From a virus, in IMG/VR virus record IMGVR_UViG_3300030102_001245, positions 1 through 42,920 of that record: a stretch of DNA of 42,920 nt. One strand, written 5' to 3'. How positions within the stretch are numbered: position 1 is the first letter of the stretch; the number at the start of each line of letters is the position of its first letter. Below are positions 7,494 to 42,837 of this stretch, piece after piece. The notes under the pieces are model-generated. The model was not told where the DNA came from. It saw nothing but the letters and a program-made list of their open reading frames with translations, and did not search any database. A program made the position numbers and the translations under genes.

Positions 7494-7922
7494 TTATGTA
7501 AAACTAGCTGGAACGACTGCTCTGGTTCCTCCAGTCTTACTTCTTTTCTTTGTGCCATATTTCTTAATGGCCATATCAAATTTTCTTTCATGTCTCATCA
7601 TCAGGTTCATTGCCATCTGTGCTCTGTTACCATCCGATGTTTTTCCTGCACGATCCATGTATAAACATTTCTTTACATAATCCACAATCGCAGAATGATA
7701 TAAGTTATCGACATCTGGAGTATCCGTGATTGCTGTAACCTTATTAGGATTTCCATAATAATGTATAAGTAGTCCGTTTGTAACCGAGTGGTCAAACGCT
7801 TGAAAAGCCTTCCTATCTGTTCTTGATTCACCTGTTGAAGAAAATGTTGTAATTAATCCTAAATGATCTCCTCTGATAAAGTACAATACCTTATCTTCTG
7901 GATGTTTAATATTGCTAGCCAT
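7494..7922 (-). CDS. Virion connector-region protein (142 aa)
   Basis: A 142-residue protein with alternating polar beta-like and helical regions and a basic tail (KKYGTKKRSKTGGTR). It overlaps by one base the gene at 7922..8272. Genes between capsid and fibre in podoviruses usually encode head-tail connector proteins, and this triplet (7494, 7922, 8272) fits that position. I see DHSVTNGLLIHYYGNP and DVDNLYHSAIVDYVKKCLY, neither of which I can assign to a named family. A structural role is likely; the exact one is open. Confidence 0.6.
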   Translation of the reverse strand: MASNIKHPEDKVLYFIRGDHLGLITTFSSTGESRTDRKAFQAFDHSVTNGLLIHYYGNPNKVTAITDTPDVDNLYHSAIVDYVKKCLYMDRAGKTSDGNRAQMAMNLMMRHERKFDMAIKKYGTKKRSKTGGTRAVVPASFT

Positions 7923-8272
7923 TATGAAGGCTCCTCTATTGCAGACTCTGAAGTAATATCAAACATGAGTGGCTCACCATCCAATACCCTTGGAATCCTT
8001 ATGTAATCACCATCATTGTCCATTATGTCTACCCTGTATACTTTGTTTATCCCCATTGCGTTACTAGAAGAATCTGTAGCACTATCAGATAAATCATAAA
8101 ATGTTTGATTTGCTACTATGTTAACTTTTGCAGACATTGACTTTTGAGAGTATTGACCAAGTTCATTTAATGCATCGTTAATTAAAGATATAATATATGT
8201 TTCTGGGGCATCAGGAAAAACCTGTCTAACCCTACTGATAATTTGTTTTACTGTTAAAGAATGTATTGCCAT
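7922..8272 (-). CDS. Head-tail adaptor-like protein (116 aa)
   Basis: The N-terminal helix pair (VKQIISRVRQVFPDAPETY, then LINDALNELGQY) followed by a beta-rich part (NIVANQTFYDLSD) and YRVDIMDNDGDYIRIPRV resembles the layout of short phage adaptor proteins that dock on the portal: helical bundle plus small beta domain. It starts directly at the stop of the 368-residue gene (overlap of one base). Assignment is by layout and position. Confidence 0.55.
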   Translation of the reverse strand: MAIHSLTVKQIISRVRQVFPDAPETYIISLINDALNELGQYSQKSMSAKVNIVANQTFYDLSDSATDSSSNAMGINKVYRVDIMDNDGDYIRIPRVLDGEPLMFDITSESAIEEPS

Positions 8273-9378
8273 TATTTCAACGCCTGTATTCCCTTATCAT
8301 AATCTGCCTGTAATTTAGCTTGTTGTTTCTCATATTTACCATACTCACTTGCATCAGCCGCTAGCCTTGCCTGCACTTCATTTCCATAGGCCTGAGCGAT
8401 GTTAATTTTTGCTTGTATTTCGTTAGCGTATCCTTGAGCCGCATTTAGCAACCCGCTTACTACCTGACCATAACCACTTACTTGAGACATTCTAGCGTTT
8501 ACTTCTCCAGCAAAAGCCTGTGCTTCATTTGCGGATGCATTAGCCTCAGACAAAAAACCATTTCCTACCTGAACATGACTAGCCGCTAATTCCGTATCTT
8601 CATTAGAAGAGTTAGCTGAAATTACTGCTAAATCAAATTCTGAATTAGCCAGAGACACAGCCGTATTTATCTTATCAGCCGCAGTGTTAATAGCTGTTAA
8701 TGCAGTATCTACATCAGCATCTACTTGAGTTGCAGATTCTCCAAGCTGTGTAACGGCATCGTCTACCTGAGTATTAATTAAATCGCATATAGATTGAGTT
8801 TCATCTAACTCTGTGTTTATAGCAGTTAAGGCTGTTAACACATCTGAATTAACAGATTTACTTGCTAATATATTTTGTAAAGATTTTATTGCACCATAAA
8901 TAGGAACAAGGTATTCAGCATCATCTGGAAACTTAGCAATGGTGCTGTCACCAAAAGCAACCGTAGGATAATTCAGTGTATGCACATGAGCGTTCTGAGC
9001 ATTAGTAGGTGAAGGGACAACAACTAAAGTATTATTTGTAACATAGTAGGCAGGGTCTGTAACGGTAGCCGCCATCATGTCATCAGCATCTCTAATACGT
9101 CCATTTAACTCAGCAGGTACTCTTCTGCAAGGCTGGTTTATTGCACCATCATCTCTAGTTACACTAAATATCTCAGAACCCAAAAGAGTAAGGCTTTGAC
9201 TACTGCCATTCAAATCGTTTGCAGTTGTAAACAAAGCTTGCTTTGATCTTGGTAGTGTATTTAAGATTTCTTTAGCACCATCTGTTAAGAACTGAGAGAG
9301 TTCTGACTGTGTTGGTGCACTACTACCATCTATATCTAAACTTGTTAACGCTTCTACCTGTGCTTCAAATGTTGCCAT
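8272..9378 (-). CDS. Adaptor or tail-tube protein with long coiled-coil tail (368 aa)
   Basis: The first ~170 residues look like a folded domain with SQFLTDGAKEILNTLPRSK and PSPTNAQNAHVHTLNYPTVA. This kind of N-terminus is common in predicted connector proteins of marine phages. From about residue 175 the protein becomes Ala/Asn/Glu-rich with repeated units such as ANEAQAFAGEVNARM and QAYGNEVQARLAADASEYG, indicating a long helical, trimer-like stalk. The combination suggests a tail component that attaches a fibre or plugs the tail. It lies between the basic-protein cluster and the adaptor-like gene. Confidence 0.6.
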   Translation of the reverse strand: MATFEAQVEALTSLDIDGSSAPTQSELSQFLTDGAKEILNTLPRSKQALFTTANDLNGSSQSLTLLGSEIFSVTRDDGAINQPCRRVPAELNGRIRDADDMMAATVTDPAYYVTNNTLVVVPSPTNAQNAHVHTLNYPTVAFGDSTIAKFPDDAEYLVPIYGAIKSLQNILASKSVNSDVLTALTAINTELDETQSICDLINTQVDDAVTQLGESATQVDADVDTALTAINTAADKINTAVSLANSEFDLAVISANSSNEDTELAASHVQVGNGFLSEANASANEAQAFAGEVNARMSQVSGYGQVVSGLLNAAQGYANEIQAKINIAQAYGNEVQARLAADASEYGKYEKQQAKLQADYDKGIQALK

Positions 9379-9381
9379 GTA

Positions 9382-9696
9382 TTACTTCTTCTTTCTTCTA
9401 GTCGTTGTTTTCTTTTTAGCTGTTTTCTTTTTACCACCACGTATTAAATCTGCATCTGCTTTTCTAGCCCCACCTTTACCCGTAGCAAAACTTCTTACCC
9501 TGCCAGCGGCCCATTGATGAGCACTGACTCCGGGTCTAGAACCACTGGAGTAATATGCACCCAAACCCCTTGAGTACACTTTAGACAAAGTTCCTTTCGA
9601 TATTCCAGAGCTTTTGGAATACTTAGCAAGAACTGCGGCTTTACTTCCTCCGCTTTTTTTTCTTGCTGGTTTTCTTTTTGCTGGTTTTCTTGCCAC
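9382..9696 (-). CDS. Lys/Arg-rich protein with SKGTLSKVYSRG core (104 aa)
   Basis: Start is GTG 9696 with AAAGGAG five to six bases upstream. The protein has a basic head (MARKPAKRKPARKK), a folded core ISKGTLSKVYSRGLGAYYS, then RPGVSAHQWAAGRVRSF, and a basic tail (GKKKTAKKKTTTRRKKK). The core resembles the small DUF5824 domain of phages and giant viruses (from memory). The first 56 bases overlap, in a different frame, the end of the preceding gene; both frames encode Lys/Arg tails. Very basic ends suggest DNA or RNA binding, perhaps packaged with the genome, but this is inference from composition and its place among virion genes. Confidence 0.7.
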   Translation of the reverse strand: MARKPAKRKPARKKSGGSKAAVLAKYSKSSGISKGTLSKVYSRGLGAYYSSGSRPGVSAHQWAAGRVRSFATGKGGARKADADLIRGGKKKTAKKKTTTRRKKK

Positions 9697-9874
9697 TCTT
9701 ACTCCTTTGTTTCGATATCATATCCATCATTGCAGGTGTCAATGCACCTTCTCTATACATCTTACGTGTTCTTAATATCTCATCCTGTGTTTTCTTTTGG
9801 TTCTTAGAACCTTTAACATATTTTTTGGGTACGCCTCGTTTTGTCTTTGGTACTTTTTTAAACTTCCTAGTCAT
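9641..9874 (-). CDS. Very basic small protein (77 aa)
   Basis: Composed largely of Lys, Arg, Thr and Ser: MTRKFKKVPKTKRGVPKKY at the start and KKTSKKKTSKKKKRRK at the end, with a short helical patch (MYREGALTPAMMDMISKQR) in the middle. The 3' end overlaps the next gene by 56 bases in another frame. Starts one base after the stop region of the upstream gene. No catalytic motif. Composition resembles histone H1-like or protamine-like tails; a nucleic-acid condensing or virion role is plausible but unproven. Confidence 0.65.
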   Translation of the reverse strand: MTRKFKKVPKTKRGVPKKYVKGSKNQKKTQDEILRTRKMYREGALTPAMMDMISKQRSKSGKKTSKKKTSKKKKRRK

Positions 9875-9875
9875 G

Positions 9876-10172
9876 CTACTTTTTCTTTTTATTTGCTCTT
9901 CTAATAGCTTCTTTACCTTTTTTAAAAATCTGTACCTGTGTTCTCTTTCCCGCTACCTTTGACCTTTGCTCTCCAACTGTTAGTATCTGTATCTTACGAG
10001 CAAAAGGCTTTCTAATCCTTTTTACTTTTGCAACCGTTGCTCTGGCATCAGCAGGCGTTGCATATTTAATTCTTACTGTATCTTTTGGGTTTTCATCTGT
10101 GTACAATCTACGTCCACTGCCCTTTGGCTTTTTACCCGTGCCAACCTTCGGGTCTTTTTTCTTTCTAGTCAC
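9876..10172 (-). CDS. Very basic small protein (98 aa)
   Basis: Start is GTG 10172, overlapping the TAG of the 40-residue gene by one base. The product is strongly cationic (TRKKKDPKVGTGKKPKGSG; ending FKKGKEAIRRANKKKK) with a possible beta-rich middle (DTVRIKYATPADARATVAKV, then FARKIQILTVGEQRSKV). It is one of six consecutive small basic proteins between the capsid-stabilising protein and the connectors. Family not recognised. Confidence 0.65.
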   Translation of the reverse strand: MTRKKKDPKVGTGKKPKGSGRRLYTDENPKDTVRIKYATPADARATVAKVKRIRKPFARKIQILTVGEQRSKVAGKRTQVQIFKKGKEAIRRANKKKK

Positions 10173-10294
10173 TACTTCTTAATCTTCTTAACTTTACCGT
10201 TTTTTGTTCTAGCAAACTTATGGGTTTTTGTCTCTCTTATCAAGGTTCCATAATGTCTCTTTCCACCCCACATCCAGCTAACGGTTTTTGCCAT
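10172..10294 (-). CDS. Tiny basic protein (40 aa)
   Basis: ATG at 10294 overlaps the TAA of the upstream gene (TAATG) and the TAG at 10174-10172 overlaps the next GTG. The product starts MAKTVSWMWGGKRHYGTL and ends KNGKVKKIKK; Trp and aromatic residues in the first half, Lys-rich second half. The start and stop overlaps with both neighbours are the main support, since no ORF of this size is significant alone. Function unknown; it belongs to the same basic cluster. Confidence 0.65.
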   Translation of the reverse strand: MAKTVSWMWGGKRHYGTLIRETKTHKFARTKNGKVKKIKK

Positions 10295-10542
10295 TACTTT
10301 CCAACTTTCTTCTGAGCCATTTTATGAGAAGCTCCAAAGCTCTTACCTTTCTTCATTGCATTAGCCATCATCTTCAAGTGTTTTGCTGTGTGATGCTTTG
10401 AATGTTTTTTCATAGCATTTGCCTGTCTCGTAGTAAGACCAGCCATAGAAACACCTTTTACACTCTTTGGTGCTTTCATTGCTTTTGCTTTTGCTTTTGG
10501 CCTTCCTTTTTTAGAACCATATGTTCCCTTACCCATTGGCAT
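10294..10542 (-). CDS. Lys/Met/Ala-rich small protein (82 aa)
   Basis: MPMGKGTYGSKKGRPKAKA at the N-terminus and repeated helical units (AMKKHSKHHTAKHLKMMANA, then MKKGKSFGASHKMAQKK). The His/Lys/Met-rich helices give a strongly positive amphipathic protein similar in feel to minor capsid-associated or DNA-binding peptides. Preceded by AAAAGGAG. I recall similar MP.GKGTYG.KKGRP starts in predicted proteins of marine phages, without a known function. Confidence 0.65.
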   Translation of the reverse strand: MPMGKGTYGSKKGRPKAKAKAMKAPKSVKGVSMAGLTTRQANAMKKHSKHHTAKHLKMMANAMKKGKSFGASHKMAQKKVGK

Positions 10543-10554
10543 AATAAACTCCTT

Positions 10555-10857
10555 TTACCATTTTACTTTATGACTCCAATACCTAGCAGATAACTTACTA
10601 GGATTAGGGTCTTGTGCATTATGTCTAGCGTAATATGATTTACGCCTTGCTTTGTCTTTTTTGCTTTTTGGATTTTTACCAGCACCTCGTACTCCCTGCT
10701 GTCCAAACCTTATTGTTTTTACTTTTGATCCCACCTTAGCAACCACAACATGTGATTTAGTAGGATGACCGGGAGTTCTTTTTGGTTTGTTATAACCAGA
10801 CACTCCTGCCTTTGCAAGCCTTGAATCTTTCTTTTTTCCTTTTTTTTTAGCTGGCAT
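10555..10857 (-). CDS. Basic protein with GNxxxxKKD(K)ARRKSYYARH motif (100 aa)
   Basis: A 100-residue Lys/Arg-rich protein. The C-terminal half contains KDKARRKSYYARHNAQDPN and then LSARYWSHKVKW. The block ARRKSYYARH next to PSKLSARYWSHK is recognisable as a recurrent element of predicted proteins from large DNA viruses and marine phages, but I cannot give it a secure domain name. It overlaps the upstream zinc-ribbon gene by 11 bases. Probably nucleic-acid binding or a virion component. Confidence 0.65.
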   Translation of the reverse strand: MPAKKKGKKKDSRLAKAGVSGYNKPKRTPGHPTKSHVVVAKVGSKVKTIRFGQQGVRGAGKNPKSKKDKARRKSYYARHNAQDPNPSKLSARYWSHKVKW

Positions 10858-11053
10858 AGCCTAAATTTTTTCTCATTTTTTCTGTATTTTGTTGTATGGA
10901 CTGAGTTGACAACTCTACATCTGTTCTCTTTCCTAGGTCAGATGTCATCCATAGATTTGTAGTAAATTTACTTTCAGAAGCTTTTTTACCGCAATACTTA
11001 CAGTAAAACCATCCCTCTCTGTTTTCTTTATCACAATGCATACACTTTTTCAT
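10847..11053 (-). CDS. Zinc-ribbon protein (68 aa)
   Basis: Four cysteines in CxxC pairs (C4, C7, C18, C21: KKCMHCDKENREGWFYCKYC) form a short zinc ribbon followed by a helical region containing QSIQQNTEKMRKNLGY. AAAGGAGAAACT precedes ATG 11053. It is the first gene of the basic-protein cluster and is separated from the capsid genes by a 10-bp perfect hairpin. Small zinc ribbons of this type bind nucleic acids or stabilise structure; the precise role is not known. Confidence 0.7.
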   Translation of the reverse strand: MKKCMHCDKENREGWFYCKYCGKKASESKFTTNLWMTSDLGKRTDVELSTQSIQQNTEKMRKNLGYAS

Positions 11054-11136: not shown

Positions 11137-11568
11137 TTATGATGTTGTTATAGAACCGTTAATACCGGACAGTGCACTTCCAACATACTCACCACCAACA
11201 AACATAAGCTCAACATAATCAGCTTTTTGAGCTGAAGTGCCAATGATTACGTTTGATACTTGAGTTCCAACTGTAGAAGCCGCTGTTCCAGTTACGTCTA
11301 GACCAACAAAACTAATGATAGCACTTCCAGCCGCTAATGTAATAGCACCTGTTGGCGTTTCTTCCTCTACGATGAATTTATAGTATACACCATCTTCACC
11401 AGAAGAAGCTGTTGGCAATGTTATTGAATAAGCACCGCCAGCAGAATCAAGCAAGAAAACCTTGCCACTATCGTCATTTGTTAAGGTTCTAGCCGCTACG
11501 ATTTTTTCAACCTTTTTCTTTAATCCAAAAGTTGAACCGCTACTTTCATTAAGATAATCAGCTCTCAT
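11137..11568 (-). CDS. Probable capsid decoration or stabilising protein (143 aa)
   Basis: Encoded directly after the major capsid gene. Beta-rich, with ARTLTNDDSGKVFLLDSAGG and YSITLPTASSGEDGVYYKFI. The block LT..DSGK.F.LD..GG...TLP is typical of a family of small beta-fold phage virion proteins often labelled decoration proteins. It probably trimerises on the capsid surface. The assignment rests on position and the motif; no search was run. Confidence 0.65.
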   Translation of the reverse strand: MRADYLNESSGSTFGLKKKVEKIVAARTLTNDDSGKVFLLDSAGGAYSITLPTASSGEDGVYYKFIVEEETPTGAITLAAGSAIISFVGLDVTGTAASTVGTQVSNVIIGTSAQKADYVELMFVGGEYVGSALSGINGSITTS

Positions 11569-11569
11569 C

Positions 11570-12934
11570 TTAGACTCCTTCTAGGTTAAACAGTGCATGT
11601 GACTCAGGAAGAGTTACTTCAAGACCAGCTTCGGTCAAGATCATATCTTTCCTTAAATCCTCATCAGCACCTTGTACGTTAGTCATAACTTGCGTATCAC
11701 GATTGATACCGTTACCGATCAACGGACGATATGCCAACTGAGTCATGTCAGCCATAAGCATAAAACCAGATGCAATACCTCTAAACAATGGCTCTTTTAC
11801 AAGATTCAATGTTCCGTGTATTGTATCAATGACCATTACAGAATGACCAAATGACCCTTCTCTAGAATCAAAATTCATTCTAAAAGGCATATTGTTTGCT
11901 GAACCTATAGAAGCATCAAGGAACTTTCCATCACCTAGTTTGTTGAAGAATGTAATTACTGGTAAACTACATAGAACCAGTTTTTCTGACATTCCACCCC
12001 TAGCAGGATCAAAGATTACCTCAAGGTCTCCAAGCAATCTATCGTAAGTTAGGTTTGCCTGTGATACACTTCTATAGTAAGCACTACCAGATGCATAGCT
12101 GAAATCATCTGTTCCAGTTTTTGGAGATACATTTTTCACAATGTGTCCAACTAGACCTTCAGTGTACTGGATGCCACCTACACGAGCTTTTTGACCGAAG
12201 AGCATAGCTCTTTCAATATCAATTTTGTGCTCACGTAATTTAGTAGCCCAGATACGATTCCACTCTTCAGCATACCCACGATAGCGAGTTGCATAAGCAG
12301 TGTTTGTCATCTCTGCCGCTGTTTTAAAAATCTGGGTGTACCCAAAATCGTCTTCTAACTCAGAAGAGAATACATCGGGTGAACCAGAACCTTCTTCAAA
12401 TGAAGAACCTATGATTTGAGCTACGTCATCATCAGCAATGCTATTACTTCCACTTACAGCAGATACATCAATTACCTTACCTGTAAATGTGGATTGATTG
12501 CTTGCATGAGCAACTCCTGAATCTACTCTCACTAATGCCTGACCGTATCCATCTGTATCATCTTTCGTTCCGACGGCTAAGACCATACCTTTAATCAGGT
12601 ACTCTACAGCGGCTCCATCAGCAGTATCAACAGTAAATGAATACGAAGAACCTGCGGCAACCGTACCAACAGCACCCTTAATCAAAAGAGAACGGTCTGT
12701 AAAACTAATTCGGTTACGATTTTCTAAATAACGGAACACGGGGTCATCGGTAGGTGATTTAGCAACCTGATTAAGATATACGAAGAATGGTGATTCTTCT
12801 GGAACTAACTCGGCAACTCTGTCACCGAAGTTAAATATTCGTCTTCTATCCGGTCTTTGACCTACACCAGCATCAGAGGTAGTAGCTGTTATATCACTGG
12901 ATTTTAATACTCCAGAATTAAATGATATTGCCAT
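11570..12934 (-). CDS. Major capsid protein, SU10/DUF5309-like (454 aa)
   Basis: Length, position after the scaffold gene and sequence fit the SU10-type HK97-fold major capsid protein family (DUF5309). N-terminal arm MAISFNSGVLKSSD; PEESPFFVYLNQVAKSPTDD; a helical stretch TAYATRYRGYAEEWNRIWAT followed by REHKIDIERAMLFGQKAR, which resembles the spine-helix region of these proteins; and late beta-rich segments. It forms the icosahedral shell around the genome. A glycine/serine-rich insertion at about residues 90-190 may be a surface domain. Preceded by AAAGGTAAT. Confidence 0.85.
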   Translation of the reverse strand: MAISFNSGVLKSSDITATTSDAGVGQRPDRRRIFNFGDRVAELVPEESPFFVYLNQVAKSPTDDPVFRYLENRNRISFTDRSLLIKGAVGTVAAGSSYSFTVDTADGAAVEYLIKGMVLAVGTKDDTDGYGQALVRVDSGVAHASNQSTFTGKVIDVSAVSGSNSIADDDVAQIIGSSFEEGSGSPDVFSSELEDDFGYTQIFKTAAEMTNTAYATRYRGYAEEWNRIWATKLREHKIDIERAMLFGQKARVGGIQYTEGLVGHIVKNVSPKTGTDDFSYASGSAYYRSVSQANLTYDRLLGDLEVIFDPARGGMSEKLVLCSLPVITFFNKLGDGKFLDASIGSANNMPFRMNFDSREGSFGHSVMVIDTIHGTLNLVKEPLFRGIASGFMLMADMTQLAYRPLIGNGINRDTQVMTNVQGADEDLRKDMILTEAGLEVTLPESHALFNLEGV

Positions 12935-23128: not shown

Positions 23129-23635
23129 ATGCACATGATAATAAGAAATATTGTATACGCTAATTCTGGAAGTAAGGCGATTTCCAAAGCTAGAAATAAC
23201 ATGGATAACCTATGCGAAGGGCAGTATCCATTCGACTACTATGATACTTTTGACAATGGAGGTACTTCGTATTGGGGTGATAGACTACAACCCGTATCCG
23301 ATATAAGCACCGCAGAAGGGCGTAAATTGGTGGTAGACGGGTGGAGAAACACATTAAGGGATATGAGGTATCACTTACAAGAAATACGGAAGATTACAGA
23401 AAATAAGAGCGACCTAGAAATCATACAATCTCTGAAAGAAAATCATCTTCAACACCACTATTATTCTATTGGAATGTATCAAGGTTCAGGAGTGTGGATG
23501 TATGACACTGATGGTGAAGGGATAAAGTCTAGGAATCATTTAAACAATGCATTAACCAAATGGGGCGGTATAGATATTACAGAAGAAGAAAGAGATCAAA
23601 AGGTTTTTGTAGTACCCGCAGATGTACATTATTAA
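23129..23635 (+). CDS. Conserved hypothetical early protein (168 aa)
   Basis: Distinct pattern: QYPFDYYDTFDNGGTSYWGD, then AEGRKLVVDGWRNTLRDMRY. I recall related proteins with a conserved FDYY..F and a GR..V..W helix in uncultured marine phages, without function. ATG 23129 follows AAAAGGAGC. Its 3' end contains the ribosome site of the HNH gene (AAGGAGG at 23634-23640). Confidence 0.65.
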   Translation: MHMIIRNIVYANSGSKAISKARNNMDNLCEGQYPFDYYDTFDNGGTSYWGDRLQPVSDISTAEGRKLVVDGWRNTLRDMRYHLQEIRKITENKSDLEIIQSLKENHLQHHYYSIGMYQGSGVWMYDTDGEGIKSRNHLNNALTKWGGIDITEEERDQKVFVVPADVHY

Positions 23636-23646
23636 GGAGGTGTATG

Positions 23647-24066
23647 ATGACAGAAACAAGAACATGTAAAGGGTGTAATGTCAGTATGGATTTATCAGAG
23701 TTTGCTAAAACGGGTATGTTTGACAAGTCGGGCAATCCATACAGAAGATATTACTGTACAAAACATGGGTGCTATTGGGATCACAAAAAGAAAACACCTA
23801 ACGGAAGAATGGAGAAGGCTAGAAAGGTGAGAGAGTACAAAGAACAACTGAGTTGTGGAAGTTGTGGTTACTCTCAGAAATCAAGAGGTAAAAAGTTTTC
23901 TACTTGGGCACTACAATTTCATCATCACGACCATACGAAGGAAGCCAATGTTGGCAACATGATTAGTAATGGATTCGGACTTAAAAAGATATTTGATGAG
24001 ATCAAGAAGTGTATTGTCCTTTGTGCTAACTGCCACATGGAATTACATGGACATCAAAATTATTAA
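23647..24066 (+). CDS. HNH endonuclease with N-terminal zinc finger (139 aa)
   Basis: The N-terminal zinc module has C7/C10 and C37/C42 (CKGC, then YYCTKHGC). The HNH domain follows: C70/C73 (SCGSC), the catalytic block LQFHHHDH (about 89-96), and C126/C129 with H130 and H134 (LCANCHMELH). HNH enzymes nick DNA and are often homing genes. I place the start at ATG 23647, six bases after GGAGG; ATG 23644 is also possible. The longer reading frame upstream overlaps the preceding gene and is a shadow. A second HNH gene of the same architecture is at 27330..27848. Confidence 0.85.
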   Translation: MTETRTCKGCNVSMDLSEFAKTGMFDKSGNPYRRYYCTKHGCYWDHKKKTPNGRMEKARKVREYKEQLSCGSCGYSQKSRGKKFSTWALQFHHHDHTKEANVGNMISNGFGLKKIFDEIKKCIVLCANCHMELHGHQNY

Positions 24067-27329: not shown

Positions 27330-27848
27330 ATGTTGAAGAGATGTGCCACATGCAAAGAAGAGAAACCCCGTAAGGAGTTTTATATCAATCGTGCTAAACC
27401 CGATGGTAGACAATACTCCTGCAAGGTGTGTCAGAAGAAGTATCACAACGATACGTGGTATGAATCTCATAGGCAACACAGGATACAGCAAGTCAAAGAA
27501 AGAAAGGCTCGTGTAACAAGAGAAAATTATAAAAGAATATTTATGGAGTACTTTATTTATGGCTGTGTAGATTGTGGTGAGAATGACCATCGACTTCTGG
27601 AGTTTGATCATGTTAAGGGATCGAAAAAGAGAGGGAAGTTCAGACCAACTGAGGGAGTAGGTCATCTTATAAGAACTGGTTACAAATGGGAAACCATAGA
27701 GAAGGAAATACAGAAGTGCAAGATAAGATGTAGGAACTGCCATCACTTAAAAACCCATAAGCAATTTGGTTATATGAAGCACATAGAAGATATTGTAAAA
27801 GAATATAATAAAAAACGGGAACAAATCAGTAAACGATGCGTTACATAA
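27330..27848 (+). CDS. HNH endonuclease with N-terminal zinc finger (172 aa)
   Basis: An N-terminal zinc module (C5/C8, C31/C34; CATCKEEKPRKEFY, CKVCQKKYH) is followed by a linker and an HNH domain: C79/C82 (GCVDCG), LLEFDHVKGSKK with D93/H94, and C134/C137 with H138 and H143 (CRNCHHLKTH). This is the same two-part architecture as the gene at 23647, so the pair may be paralogues that spread in this arm. Possible free-standing homing endonuclease or host-DNA nickase. The ribosome site upstream is weak, and no GGAAC promoter is found in the 50-base gap before it. Confidence 0.85.
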   Translation: MLKRCATCKEEKPRKEFYINRAKPDGRQYSCKVCQKKYHNDTWYESHRQHRIQQVKERKARVTRENYKRIFMEYFIYGCVDCGENDHRLLEFDHVKGSKKRGKFRPTEGVGHLIRTGYKWETIEKEIQKCKIRCRNCHHLKTHKQFGYMKHIEDIVKEYNKKREQISKRCVT

Positions 27849-39427: not shown

Positions 39428-40126
39428 TCATATTTCCACCTCTACTCGCCAAACTGATGTAATATAATAATCTATTGTTCCACCAGCAGGATCAATAGTA
39501 GCCGCAATGCTTATACCAGCCTTAGCTCCAGCCTCTATTGTTGGTGGATTATTGAAATCAGACTCATTCACAGTTAGTAAAGTATTGCTAACAAGCTCAG
39601 GAGTATGTGTAAATCTAGCAACTGTATCTGTGCCTGTGTCTCCATCATCTTGCCTGTGTATAGTAAATGAAATGTCGGCTGAAGTAGCACCAGCCAAAGA
39701 TTCTGGCCTAAACAGTATTTTATGACAAGTCATAGTGTATGGAGTTAAAAAAGCACTTGTAGCGTTATTCATATTTGCCTGTTCTCCAGTGCCCTGCCAA
39801 GGCAAAAATGTAAGATCTGTTCCTATGTTATCTGGAAAGTTGTGAATAAATATTCTATGATCTATAAACTTGTTTCTGTATTCCAATATTCCTGTTTTTA
39901 TTTTATTACCAACATCTAAGTCGTTATCAATAGATTGATTTCCATTGTGGTTCATGTCTGAACGCCAGAGTAAACCTTTTTCTTTTCTATATCTAGATAG
40001 AGAACCATTTTTGTTAAAAAATAAAACCTCTTCACCTTCTCTCATAGATTGTACAGATGGTTGAAAATTTACCACACGTATTTTGTCTTGCTTCTTACTG
40101 CTTAAAAAACGACTTACCCTGTCCAC
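39428..40126 (-). CDS. Virion structural protein (232 aa)
   Basis: GTG start at 40126 overlaps the TAG of the upstream gene. Contains SIDNDLDVGNKIKTGILEYR and a beta-rich C-terminal half with PESLAGATSADISFTIHRQD and GGTIDYYITSVWRVEVE. Beta-sandwich-like composition fits a tail or receptor-binding accessory protein. Located between the nozzle-like and ejection proteins; function unresolved. Confidence 0.55.
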   Translation of the reverse strand: MDRVSRFLSSKKQDKIRVVNFQPSVQSMREGEEVLFFNKNGSLSRYRKEKGLLWRSDMNHNGNQSIDNDLDVGNKIKTGILEYRNKFIDHRIFIHNFPDNIGTDLTFLPWQGTGEQANMNNATSAFLTPYTMTCHKILFRPESLAGATSADISFTIHRQDDGDTGTDTVARFTHTPELVSNTLLTVNESDFNNPPTIEAGAKAGISIAATIDPAGGTIDYYITSVWRVEVEI

Positions 40127-42837
40127 TATACACCTTTTCTGTAAAGAACTCTATATTCAATAGATATGTCGTTTATATATACTTTTGCAGATGTAGAGGA
40201 GGTGTCAAGCTGAACGGATATCTTGTTGCAGGTAACAGGAGAAGATGGGGTAAGTTTTACCTTTGCCCAATTAGATGCACTGGAATTGATTGTTCCGCTT
40301 AGAGCACTGCTTGAGTTATCTTCTTCTAACAATGAAAATTTATTCGTTAAGGCAACATCTGATTTGTAAGTGATGTGAACTGCATATACCTTTTTTACCT
40401 GTGCGGGATCACCAAAGTCTATCGCTCTAGTTAAAAAACGAACATTGCTTGTTGCGGCCACCGATCTATTAAGTTGATAAATATCTGTAGACCCACCAGA
40501 ATCGTGACCTATTAAGGTTTGATTACTTTCTGTATCTACAGAGTTAGTTAAGCCATCATTGCTATCCAAAACAAAATCTTTTATAAGTGTAAAGTTTCCC
40601 CTCTTTAAATCACACATAAAAGCATCACCATCGTTGTCTAAACTTTTTATTATAAAAGCCATAGACTCTTGCTCATCATAAATAATACCTGTAAAAAAAC
40701 CTACATGCGTACTCCAGTCAAGATCACTAATTTTGTTTTCCTTTAAATTTCTAATTGATGACCCATCATACAGATATAGACCCTGTTTATTTGCCCATAA
40801 CACACCATATTGCGTTCTTTTTACTGCTTCTGGATGCAACACACCCTGATACTTTTTACTGTCTTCTAAGAACCAATTACGGTCATCTCCTGATATGTTT
40901 ATAATATCTAGGCTTTTATTTTTATAAGCTAACAATCTATCTGCATAAGCTTCTATAGCAACATAGACATCAGCATCGCCCTTAGCCGCTTCTATATAGT
41001 TATCAGATGGAAACGTATCGTATCTGTTGGGCATAGAATACATGATTCTATCGGGATAAGACCTTAAGGTTGCTTCAGCTTTTGTGCTTCCCGTATCTTC
41101 ATCCTTCATTGTAACATTGCAAACAAAAGTTCTATTATTAGCCACAACCACATCTTTCCAATGTTCTCCTGAATCACCCAAAGCATTGCTAAATATACTA
41201 GAGCTAAAACCATTAATGACTTCATAAGTAATAAAGCCTAATTGAGTCACGCTAAAATTTTCAGTTGCAACCCTACTTGGGCAAGAATAAAAACTACCAG
41301 TAAGGGTCAAAGAAACTCCAGATGCGGTTGCAGTAGCATTAGAAGAAATAACTATAACGTTAGAACTGTTATTGGCAGATGATATGGTGGCTCCGGCTGG
41401 TATTCCTGCTCCTGATATGGACATACCCGGAACAGCAAGATCGTTAGATGTGTCCGTAATGTTAGCACTACCACTTGTTGTGTTGCCTGTTAATGATTGA
41501 CTTGGGTTTGTCCAAGCTGTATACTCATCAGATAACTTAGTACGAACTCCTTTTCCAAGGTGAATATCTAATAACATTATATATTCAGAGTCTGTCCCTT
41601 TTTCTCTTATATATATTCTACCACCCGATATTCTTTCATCATAAGGGCCAACTGTAGAAATATTTAGAGATAAAGATTTTAAATTATTAGCATCGGTTAC
41701 TATGTGAGTCGCTGAATAATCAGAAGGTAAAGACTCTTGATTTTCATCATATATAAATGTTTGAGCAAATTCATATTCAGCCGCCTCTATAAATCCATCT
41801 ACATCTGTTTCAGTCGCAACAGCAAGATTAAATCCAGAACCGGCACTCAAAGAGGTAGCGGTTGCAGAATCATTGTCTTGATTTTTTTCGTAGCTAGCTA
41901 ATGCACCAGAAGTTCCAGAGCTTGAGGCTACTGTTCCATCAGTAGGTTTGGCCAAATCATTTTCTTTATCGTGGTATTTCATAAATGAGTTAGGATCAGT
42001 GGAATTTGTTGCACCATTAAAGTGTCTTCTTTGTATCCATCCATACCATTTAATTTTAGAATCATTGTTATCAGCGGTATCACAAGCCCTAATAGAATCT
42101 TCTACTCTATAATACTTAACCTTTGAGGGAATTGAAATGGCAGAACTTCTTAATGTAATTTCTTCATCGTTGTAATCATTAGCAGTTGTTGAAAATACAT
42201 CAATTTTATGATTAGTTGGATTTGCCAGTAGTATGACTTGATCTCCTAAAGACACTCCTTTTAGAGTAGCACCCCAGAAAACTTGAGGAGGTGTCTCAAT
42301 AGATATAGGCATAGCTCTGTCAAAAATTATATTATTACCATTTGTATTTACAACACGATAAATACCTTGAGCCGCTGTGTCAATACCGTTTGCAGGAAAA
42401 GAGGTCGCAGTCATGTGAACTAAAGTACCAACTGGAAAAGAAGATGCTAGGTTTTGCTGTGTTCCACCTGATTTGTACTCTAGCTCTCTTAAGCTACCAC
42501 CGTTAATCCTTGCTATAAAACCAGTTGCAGACCCTTCACTATCATCGTCACCTGTAATTGAACTAGTCTGAGAAACCGTTACCGAATCTCTTGTATGGTC
42601 TGTTTCAAAATACCCTAAACCGTATCCGGGTTGAACAGTGGATATGTCACCATTGTTATAGGCACTTATTTTATTATTGGTAGAGTCTGTCATAATATAT
42701 GCTGGTTGCATACCACCATACACATTAAACATAAGGTTCTGCCCTACCGATACCTCATTGTCATTTATATCAGCAACGTCTTTTACTGTATTTAAACCAC
42801 CGCTAAAATCATTCAGCTTATAAAGCCTTCTAGGCAT
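40126..42837 (-). CDS. Tail (nozzle-like) protein, intact variant B (903 aa)
   Basis: MPRRLYKLNDFSGGLNTVKD is the start typical of a large tail protein in marine podoviruses that is thought to be equivalent to the tail-tube nozzle. The protein is beta-rich and long, with EFAQTFIYDENQESLP in the middle and EAYADRLLAYKNKSLDIINI, then YQGVLHPEAVKRTQYGVLWA and YLYDGSSIR in the later half, suggesting a beta-propeller-like region. A homologous but divergent partial version (variant A) is at 1..1784. ATG 42837 lies inside the 90-bp repeat, so its upstream context is the 75-residue gene at 1784..2011. Confidence 0.75.
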   Translation of the reverse strand: MPRRLYKLNDFSGGLNTVKDVADINDNEVSVGQNLMFNVYGGMQPAYIMTDSTNNKISAYNNGDISTVQPGYGLGYFETDHTRDSVTVSQTSSITGDDDSEGSATGFIARINGGSLRELEYKSGGTQQNLASSFPVGTLVHMTATSFPANGIDTAAQGIYRVVNTNGNNIIFDRAMPISIETPPQVFWGATLKGVSLGDQVILLANPTNHKIDVFSTTANDYNDEEITLRSSAISIPSKVKYYRVEDSIRACDTADNNDSKIKWYGWIQRRHFNGATNSTDPNSFMKYHDKENDLAKPTDGTVASSSGTSGALASYEKNQDNDSATATSLSAGSGFNLAVATETDVDGFIEAAEYEFAQTFIYDENQESLPSDYSATHIVTDANNLKSLSLNISTVGPYDERISGGRIYIREKGTDSEYIMLLDIHLGKGVRTKLSDEYTAWTNPSQSLTGNTTSGSANITDTSNDLAVPGMSISGAGIPAGATISSANNSSNVIVISSNATATASGVSLTLTGSFYSCPSRVATENFSVTQLGFITYEVINGFSSSIFSNALGDSGEHWKDVVVANNRTFVCNVTMKDEDTGSTKAEATLRSYPDRIMYSMPNRYDTFPSDNYIEAAKGDADVYVAIEAYADRLLAYKNKSLDIINISGDDRNWFLEDSKKYQGVLHPEAVKRTQYGVLWANKQGLYLYDGSSIRNLKENKISDLDWSTHVGFFTGIIYDEQESMAFIIKSLDNDGDAFMCDLKRGNFTLIKDFVLDSNDGLTNSVDTESNQTLIGHDSGGSTDIYQLNRSVAATSNVRFLTRAIDFGDPAQVKKVYAVHITYKSDVALTNKFSLLEEDNSSSALSGTINSSASNWAKVKLTPSSPVTCNKISVQLDTSSTSAKVYINDISIEYRVLYRKGV

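Follow-up and report, generated by a model that had tools for sequence, protein, structure and literature searches.

The DNA that tailed phages package is regarded as nearly naked, and the internal proteins of phage T4 are, to our knowledge, the best-studied exception. These proteins (IPI, IPII and IPIII, with Alt) are small and basic, are packaged in the head at ~360 copies each and bind DNA in vitro at low salt. They are dispensable in standard hosts and poorly conserved, other basic proteins replacing them in relatives, and IPI, once ejected, blocks a restriction enzyme (PMC9026906). The chlorovirus PBCV-1 has a set of very basic virion DNA-binding proteins that have been proposed to organise the viral DNA (PMC3281028). 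Here we describe an island of six consecutive genes, A to F, for tiny and very basic proteins in the head-gene operon of a marine phage, the viral record IMGVR_UViG_3300030102_001245. The whole record of 42,920 bases was analysed (the window); since it is classed as linear, the window may be a fragment. We propose, with a probability of about one half, that by analogy the six genes act like those of the T4 internal proteins, their products being packaged, bound to DNA and ejected.

The six open reading frames (ORFs) lie on the minus strand, would be transcribed in the order F-E-D-C-B-A, and overlap or abut their neighbours. As an earlier note made from the letters of this DNA had described, all are open and encode extremely basic proteins of 40-104 residues; their isoelectric points (pI) run from 11.3 to 11.8 and their net charges from +12 to +30, adding up to +147 (Table 1). 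How unusual is such a run? Our gene model of the window holds 74 genes, 44 of which encode proteins of at most 110 residues. Just six of these small proteins have a pI above 11, all of them consecutive, and such a run arose in 1 of 200,000 permutations. Pairwise ratios of nonsynonymous to synonymous substitution rates (dN/dS) against relatives have medians of 0.10 for A, 0.13 for B, 0.02 for C, 0.04 for D and 0.045 for F. These five genes are under purifying selection and are real genes; the dN/dS analysis covers these five, and the case for E rests on its family match and its relatives.

What does evolution preserve at this locus? Among viral contigs, 80 loci carry the same capsid gene, and 41 stretches from capsid to connector were mapped, the window and a few near-duplicates included. 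All 41 have the same order of acidic protein, zinc ribbon, zero to eight basic ORFs and connector, where basic ORFs were counted at a pI above 10.5 and some of the shortest may be spurious; at least two are present in 26 of the 41. The occupants of the island are exchanged for others with the charge kept. The F slot holds either F or a DUF6321 protein of 101-110 residues and pI 12, which in one relative, L076, passes the DUF6321 (PF19846) gathering score (85 bits against 28.5, 5.5e-24). E alternates with a protein of 49-60 residues (a 56-residue example has a pI of 10.6), and B plus A alternate with an unrelated protein of 127-131 residues and a net charge of +33 to +42. Evolution here has kept position and charge, and not the particular genes.

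The island also moves in blocks. Between the window and L076, the capsid and connector genes differ at synonymous sites in proportions (pS) of 0.35 and 0.64, against 0.02 in B, 0.08 in A and 0.18 in C; because pS is low in these three genes compared with both flanks, the cassette recombines as a unit, separately from capsid and connector. B and A are neighbours 88 times across 250 loci, B looking like an obligate partner of A, and three-gene blocks move together, so that the conservation as a block raised in the earlier note is borne out. In two relatives with a single basic ORF at this site (L039 and L027), the set F-H56-I127 (H56 and I127, like G below, are our own labels) stands intact at another late-operon site. 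The relocated set of L039 lies near genes that resemble, by eye, the window's spanin-like gene 2158 (phrog_739).

The same families span podo-, sipho- and myovirus-type phages and turn up in many marine phages, in changed order, within regions for head, packaging or lysis. At E<=0.01, 84 phage records hold a homologue of F, and at E<=0.1, 158 do; the carriers include HMO-2011, SIO1, P12053L, S-CBS2, S-EIV1 and CRP-810. Large neighbours of F homologues include portal (phrog_1216 in 18, phrog_332 in 18 and phrog_156 in 13, in overlapping sets), scaffold, terminase and endolysin genes; those of A homologues include portal, tail lysozyme/endolysin, holin, terminase and scaffold genes. The patterns B-A-G, F-B-A-H56, B-A-F, F-I127 and F-C-I127 recur. 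Of the small genes adjoining A homologues, 112 of 118 are basic, versus 8 of 151 when more than six genes away; the contrast is weaker for F (28 of 75 versus 24 of 123). Cultured carriers of these genes include the Prochlorococcus phages P-SCSP1u and MED4-184/P-HS2, the pelagiphage EXVC031P, the roseophage CRP-810 and HMO-2011. In MED4-184, B-A-(E-like)-F, with pI values of 10.9-11.9, stand directly before scaffold-like and probable capsid genes, both identified by eye. The T7-like cyanophages S-TIP37, P-SCSP1u and P-SCSP2 have a DUF6321 gene (recognised by sequence motif in the latter two) and other small basic genes beside the capsid gene: P-SCSP1u places DUF6321 and a 58-residue protein of pI 11.3 between its capsid and adaptor genes, and P-SCSP2 has five tiny genes between scaffold and capsid genes, all of pI 10.2-11.4. 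DUF5824 genes, the family of A, were also seen in three marine alphaproteobacterial assemblies (L275-L277, one of them SAR116), in phage-like neighbourhoods with gene B or a DUF6321-type gene, hinting at the hosts.

Fusions likewise point to the head. ICP1 gp125, annotated as 'capsid protease' (phrog_9979; L166:6870-7706), matches Peptidase_S78_2 (2.1e-9) and carries the F domain (phrog_7595, 6.5e-11) in its C-terminal ~80 residues; this domain may direct the protease into the prohead. The F domain also aligns within phrog_220, 'minor head protein and DNA pilot'. In cyanomyoviruses, the gene between terS and terL encodes a 'T4-like GC 119' protein with DUF6321 at its C-terminus and other modules that are found elsewhere as separate small basic genes. 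The 707-residue S-SZBM1_194 (L279:11253-13376; pI 9.9), whose gene is near the DUF6321 gene in the terS-terL interval, seems to be a further basic protein of several modules.

How might the six genes work? Together they would make up a cassette whose members can be exchanged and which is expressed late, alongside the genes for capsid and tail parts; its products would be small proteins that bind nucleic acids. The proteins would enter the head during assembly or packaging, where small folded cores with Lys/Arg-rich tails would bind the packaged DNA or the acidic interior. They would then be ejected with the genome, after which some of them may shield it or have effects in the host. Of this chain, the late head-operon context and the basicity are shown by the sequence, and the later steps are inferred. 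More tentatively, and well short of even odds, some ten small basic families may constitute a recombining 'virion nucleoprotein' module of marine tailed phages, which would occur in varied combinations in podo-, sipho- and myovirus types and fused onto head proteins in others, be packaged and genome-bound, and be renewed by cassette exchange in an arms race over incoming DNA.

The nearest virion evidence comes from a sister family. ORF137 of S-CREM2 was detected in caesium chloride-purified virions with 4 unique peptides, and the adjoining ORF136, of pI 10, with 8 (PMC10665884 Table 3); ORF137 carries DUF6321 (3.5e-10), the family of the F-slot alternative rather than one of A-F. The earlier note had suggested that the proteins are packaged in the virion or delivered with the genome. 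Through the T4 analogy, the fusions and this one detection, that is the best-supported reading.

Several observations weigh against packaging. In the literature searched, we found no virion detection of A-F family members. The coverage of S-CREM2 ORF137 is 4.1%, and the whole protein is acidic (pI 5.0). The DUF6321 protein of S-SZBM1 (S-SZBM1_192) is not among the 30 virion proteins of that phage (PMC9146016 Table 1), a non-detection limited by the ease with which small Lys/Arg-rich proteins are missed in tryptic digests. In the island itself, no capsid-targeting signal was recognised and the six N-termini share no motif by eye; no head protease match was obtained among the structural ORFs searched, where an unrecognised one is possible. 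Some family copies adjoin lysis genes. Three capsid relatives have zero basic ORFs and about a dozen have one, mostly tiny (most of these relatives are incomplete), and for this reason the basic set is not strictly essential.

The icosahedral shell of P-SCSP1u is reported to consist of capsid protein only, around ordinary concentric DNA layers ~25 A apart (PMC10575957). On that account the basic proteins do not decorate the shell of this phage in an ordered way; they may lie disordered inside it or be missing. At the level of titles and abstracts, the literature on HMO-2011-type phages, ICP1 and S-EIV1 offered no usable virion table for F or A, and no virion proteome was found in the main texts of the P-SSP7 and CRP-810 papers. 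None of these families was found in the 50-kb part of P-SS2 that was scanned, which makes the P-SS2 proteome uninformative.

Could the proteins serve the head without staying in it? As head-assembly cofactors they would join the prohead core, for instance through contacts with the acidic scaffold or the inner shell, and be lost from the mature virion or remain minor in it, with DNA binding incidental. This role would fit the F domain's occurrence in fused form on a capsid maturation protease and in a family of minor-head proteins, the scaffold and portal families among the neighbours, and the five tiny basic genes of P-SCSP2 between scaffold and capsid. We nevertheless consider it unlikely: a DUF6321 protein was detected in mature S-CREM2 virions, several copies are distant from scaffold genes, and free swapping and relocation fit an accessory better than a dedicated assembly part. 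Slightly less probable again is that these are late nucleic-acid-binding proteins that are not packaged at all and act inside the producing cell, on its nucleoid, ribosomes or RNA or on defence systems. Accessory islands of genes that interact with the host typically turn over fast, and the copies that adjoin lysis genes in some phages agree with such effectors, but this reading would leave unexplained why the genes lie with head and packaging genes in phages that are unrelated, and why their domains are fused to head proteins.

The earlier note had also suggested histone-like or protamine-like DNA condensers. As true phage chromatin, the proteins would be stoichiometric, neutralising and condensing most of the packaged genome; with +147 per set, we estimate that ~60 copies of each would offset 10% of the phosphates of the 42.9-kb genome. 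This part of the proposal finds no support here: in some relatives, most of them incomplete, the island shrinks to a single tiny ORF or disappears, and the number of basic ORFs in related phages runs from many down to zero. P-SCSP1u carries two such genes and has the ordinary DNA layers described above, and one paper sees no evidence for a large contribution of basic proteins to the charge neutralisation of double-stranded phage DNA (PMC3281028). None of the six proteins matched a histone, HU, protamine or other known nucleoid protein in Pfam or PHROGs, nor did A or F in the PDB. We regard stoichiometric chromatin as improbable; protamine-like condensation is possible but unsupported. Lastly, the coding strand is purine-rich, with a strong strand skew in the island's half of the genome, and spurious Lys/Arg-rich ORFs were therefore a reasonable concern, but a compositional artefact has next to no probability: it is refuted for A, B, C, D and F by dN/dS values of 0.02-0.13, runs against the family matches (that of E among them, together with its relatives) and the conservation across unrelated phages, and describes only out-of-frame ORFs over gene F.

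Returning to the proposed packaged cassette, what are its members? By profile match, two of the six, A and F, belong to catalogued families of uncharacterised function. A passes the DUF5824 (PF19141) gathering score over residues 26-83 (51.4 bits against 25, 1.6e-13) and matches phrog_28338 at 5.4e-17; its identity to aligned viral-contig relatives is 69-91% for 24 of the 25 and 47% for the most distant. F is a full-length match to phrog_7595 (profile positions 3-96 of 96) and falls under the gathering scores of DUF6321 (PF19846; 12.6 bits against 28.5) and DUF5754 (PF19058; 16.2 against 27.4). AlphaFold2 predicts four short helices in A (residues 19-30, 34-51, 59-72 and 76-80; predicted local distance difference test score, pLDDT, 74) and a beta-hairpin with two helices in F (pLDDT 76), models that suggest small folded cores with long basic tails. 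A sequence search of the PDB with F returned a single match, at 0.6, and with Foldseek the PDB yielded no match at E<0.4 for F or at E<1 for A. Among BFVD predicted structures, the fold of A matched DUF5824 domains in proteins of 744-854 residues and one protein named DUF6321.

For E, an iterated hidden Markov model gathered a homologue set that we rejected, as it had caught out-of-frame ORFs over gene F; the family was rebuilt from the C-terminal module, which is Lys/His-rich and common to relatives in MED4-184, Hodr and P-SCSP2. One such out-of-frame ORF, at 10563-10706 inside F, is open in many homologues and draws weak self-similarity; it is probably a by-product of the conserved F residues. 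In HMO-2011, the annotated coding sequence phage1322_68 (345 residues) begins within the F gene in another frame. A Tudor domain in D was considered and rejected, its match to Hva1_TUDOR being not significant (0.12).

Table 1. Island genes A-F and neighbouring head-module genes in the window
Feature	Positions	Strand	Residues	pI	Net charge	Match or remark
Gene A, DUF5824 core with Lys/Arg-rich tails	9382-9696	-	104	11.8	+30	PF19141, phrog_28338
Gene B	9641-9874	-	77	11.5	+28	Overlaps start of A; phrog_38321 weak, 0.007
Gene C	9876-10172	-	98	11.5	+27	Present or absent among relatives
Gene D	10172-10294	-	40	11.3	+12	PF11160 sub-threshold
Gene E	10294-10542	-	82	11.6	+23	phrog_31838 weak, 1.4e-4
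Gene F, phrog_7595 domain	10555-10857	-	100	11.3	+27	phrog_7595, 1.3e-33
Zinc-ribbon gene, constant upstream island border	10847-11053	-	68			Weak zinc-ribbon matches, all under Pfam cut-off
Small acidic protein between capsid and zinc-ribbon genes	11137-11568					By position, upstream side of island
Major capsid protein, SU10 type	11570-12934	-				PF17236 (SU10_MCP) 1.2e-25; phrog_1328 1e-20
Putative tail/connector protein, acidic, downstream island border	8272-9378	-	368			Homologues in 39 capsid loci
SU10-type adaptor	7494-7922	-				PF24175 8.7e-6, 26.8 bits against cut-off 27; phrog_399 1.4e-5

The surroundings of the island agree with the virion operon seen in the earlier note. Profile matches for capsid, portal (phrog_156), terminase (phrog_38) and adaptor fit a head module of SU10 type, the adaptor lying two genes beyond the downstream border gene and scoring just under its Pfam cut-off. 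The run does stand downstream of the capsid gene and is preceded by a zinc-ribbon gene, as had been claimed; the claim of a connector gene on its other side holds less firmly. Searches of Pfam and PHROGs gave no significant family for the 8272-9378 protein, and its connector label is for that reason only likely.

The zinc-ribbon gene overlaps F, the first island gene in transcription order, and is found in 62 of the 80 capsid-selected loci (many of them truncated contigs) and in 41 of the 41 capsid-to-connector stretches. It is kept in all mapped relatives, with or without a basic cassette, and has a conserved non-ribbon tail, FTTNxWMxSDxGKRTDVE... The small acidic protein next to it is hypervariable (41% identity to L003, versus capsid proteins 92% identical) and is swapped for unrelated acidic proteins in some relatives; it is possibly an exchangeable head decoration protein. 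A scan of the island region for promoters and terminators found sites no more numerous than chance. Farther away, proteins 1380-1784 and 40126-42837, at opposite ends of the window, share similar starts (MPKQIYKINDWSGGMNN / MPRRLYKLNDFSGGLNT), which suggests that these are paralogous tail proteins and that one is short or truncated. In the early region, 23560-24066 and 27330-27848 have paired Cys motifs and His-rich ends and, by eye, read like HNH homing endonucleases.

Should packaging of the cassette be borne out, ocean phages would commonly have genomes that are associated with or escorted by proteins, and a testable role would be shared by hundreds of genes now called 'hypothetical' (DUF5824, DUF6321, phrog_7595 and their partners). 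The earlier note knew of no described system of this form. A keyword search of titles and abstracts, with subscription journals and preprints outside it, found no description of such cassettes, and to that extent the statement stands; it goes too far in that the T4 internal proteins are similar and two of the genes fall in catalogued families. The names DUF5824 and DUF6321 are absent from the literature searched, where DUF5754 does occur, in two papers. A is a DUF5824 member and the F-slot alternative a DUF6321 member; in this phage type they are stand-alone, clustered genes. The F domain, fused to Peptidase_S78_2 in ICP1 gp125, is stand-alone here, with no protease recognised, and the 'T4-like GC 119' protein is a single large protein of T4-like phages whose modules are separate small basic genes elsewhere. 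The basic proteins of PBCV-1 belong to a eukaryotic large DNA virus and are larger; the likeness drawn here is one of description. How close, then, is the cassette to the internal proteins of T4? No sequence relation was found, the cassette has no recognised propeptide or protease, and it has more genes, spread over podo-, sipho- and myovirus types. Both sets are small and basic, with basic substitutes in relatives. We do not claim that the cassette belongs to the T4 family; the T4 internal proteins appear to be its closest functional analogue.
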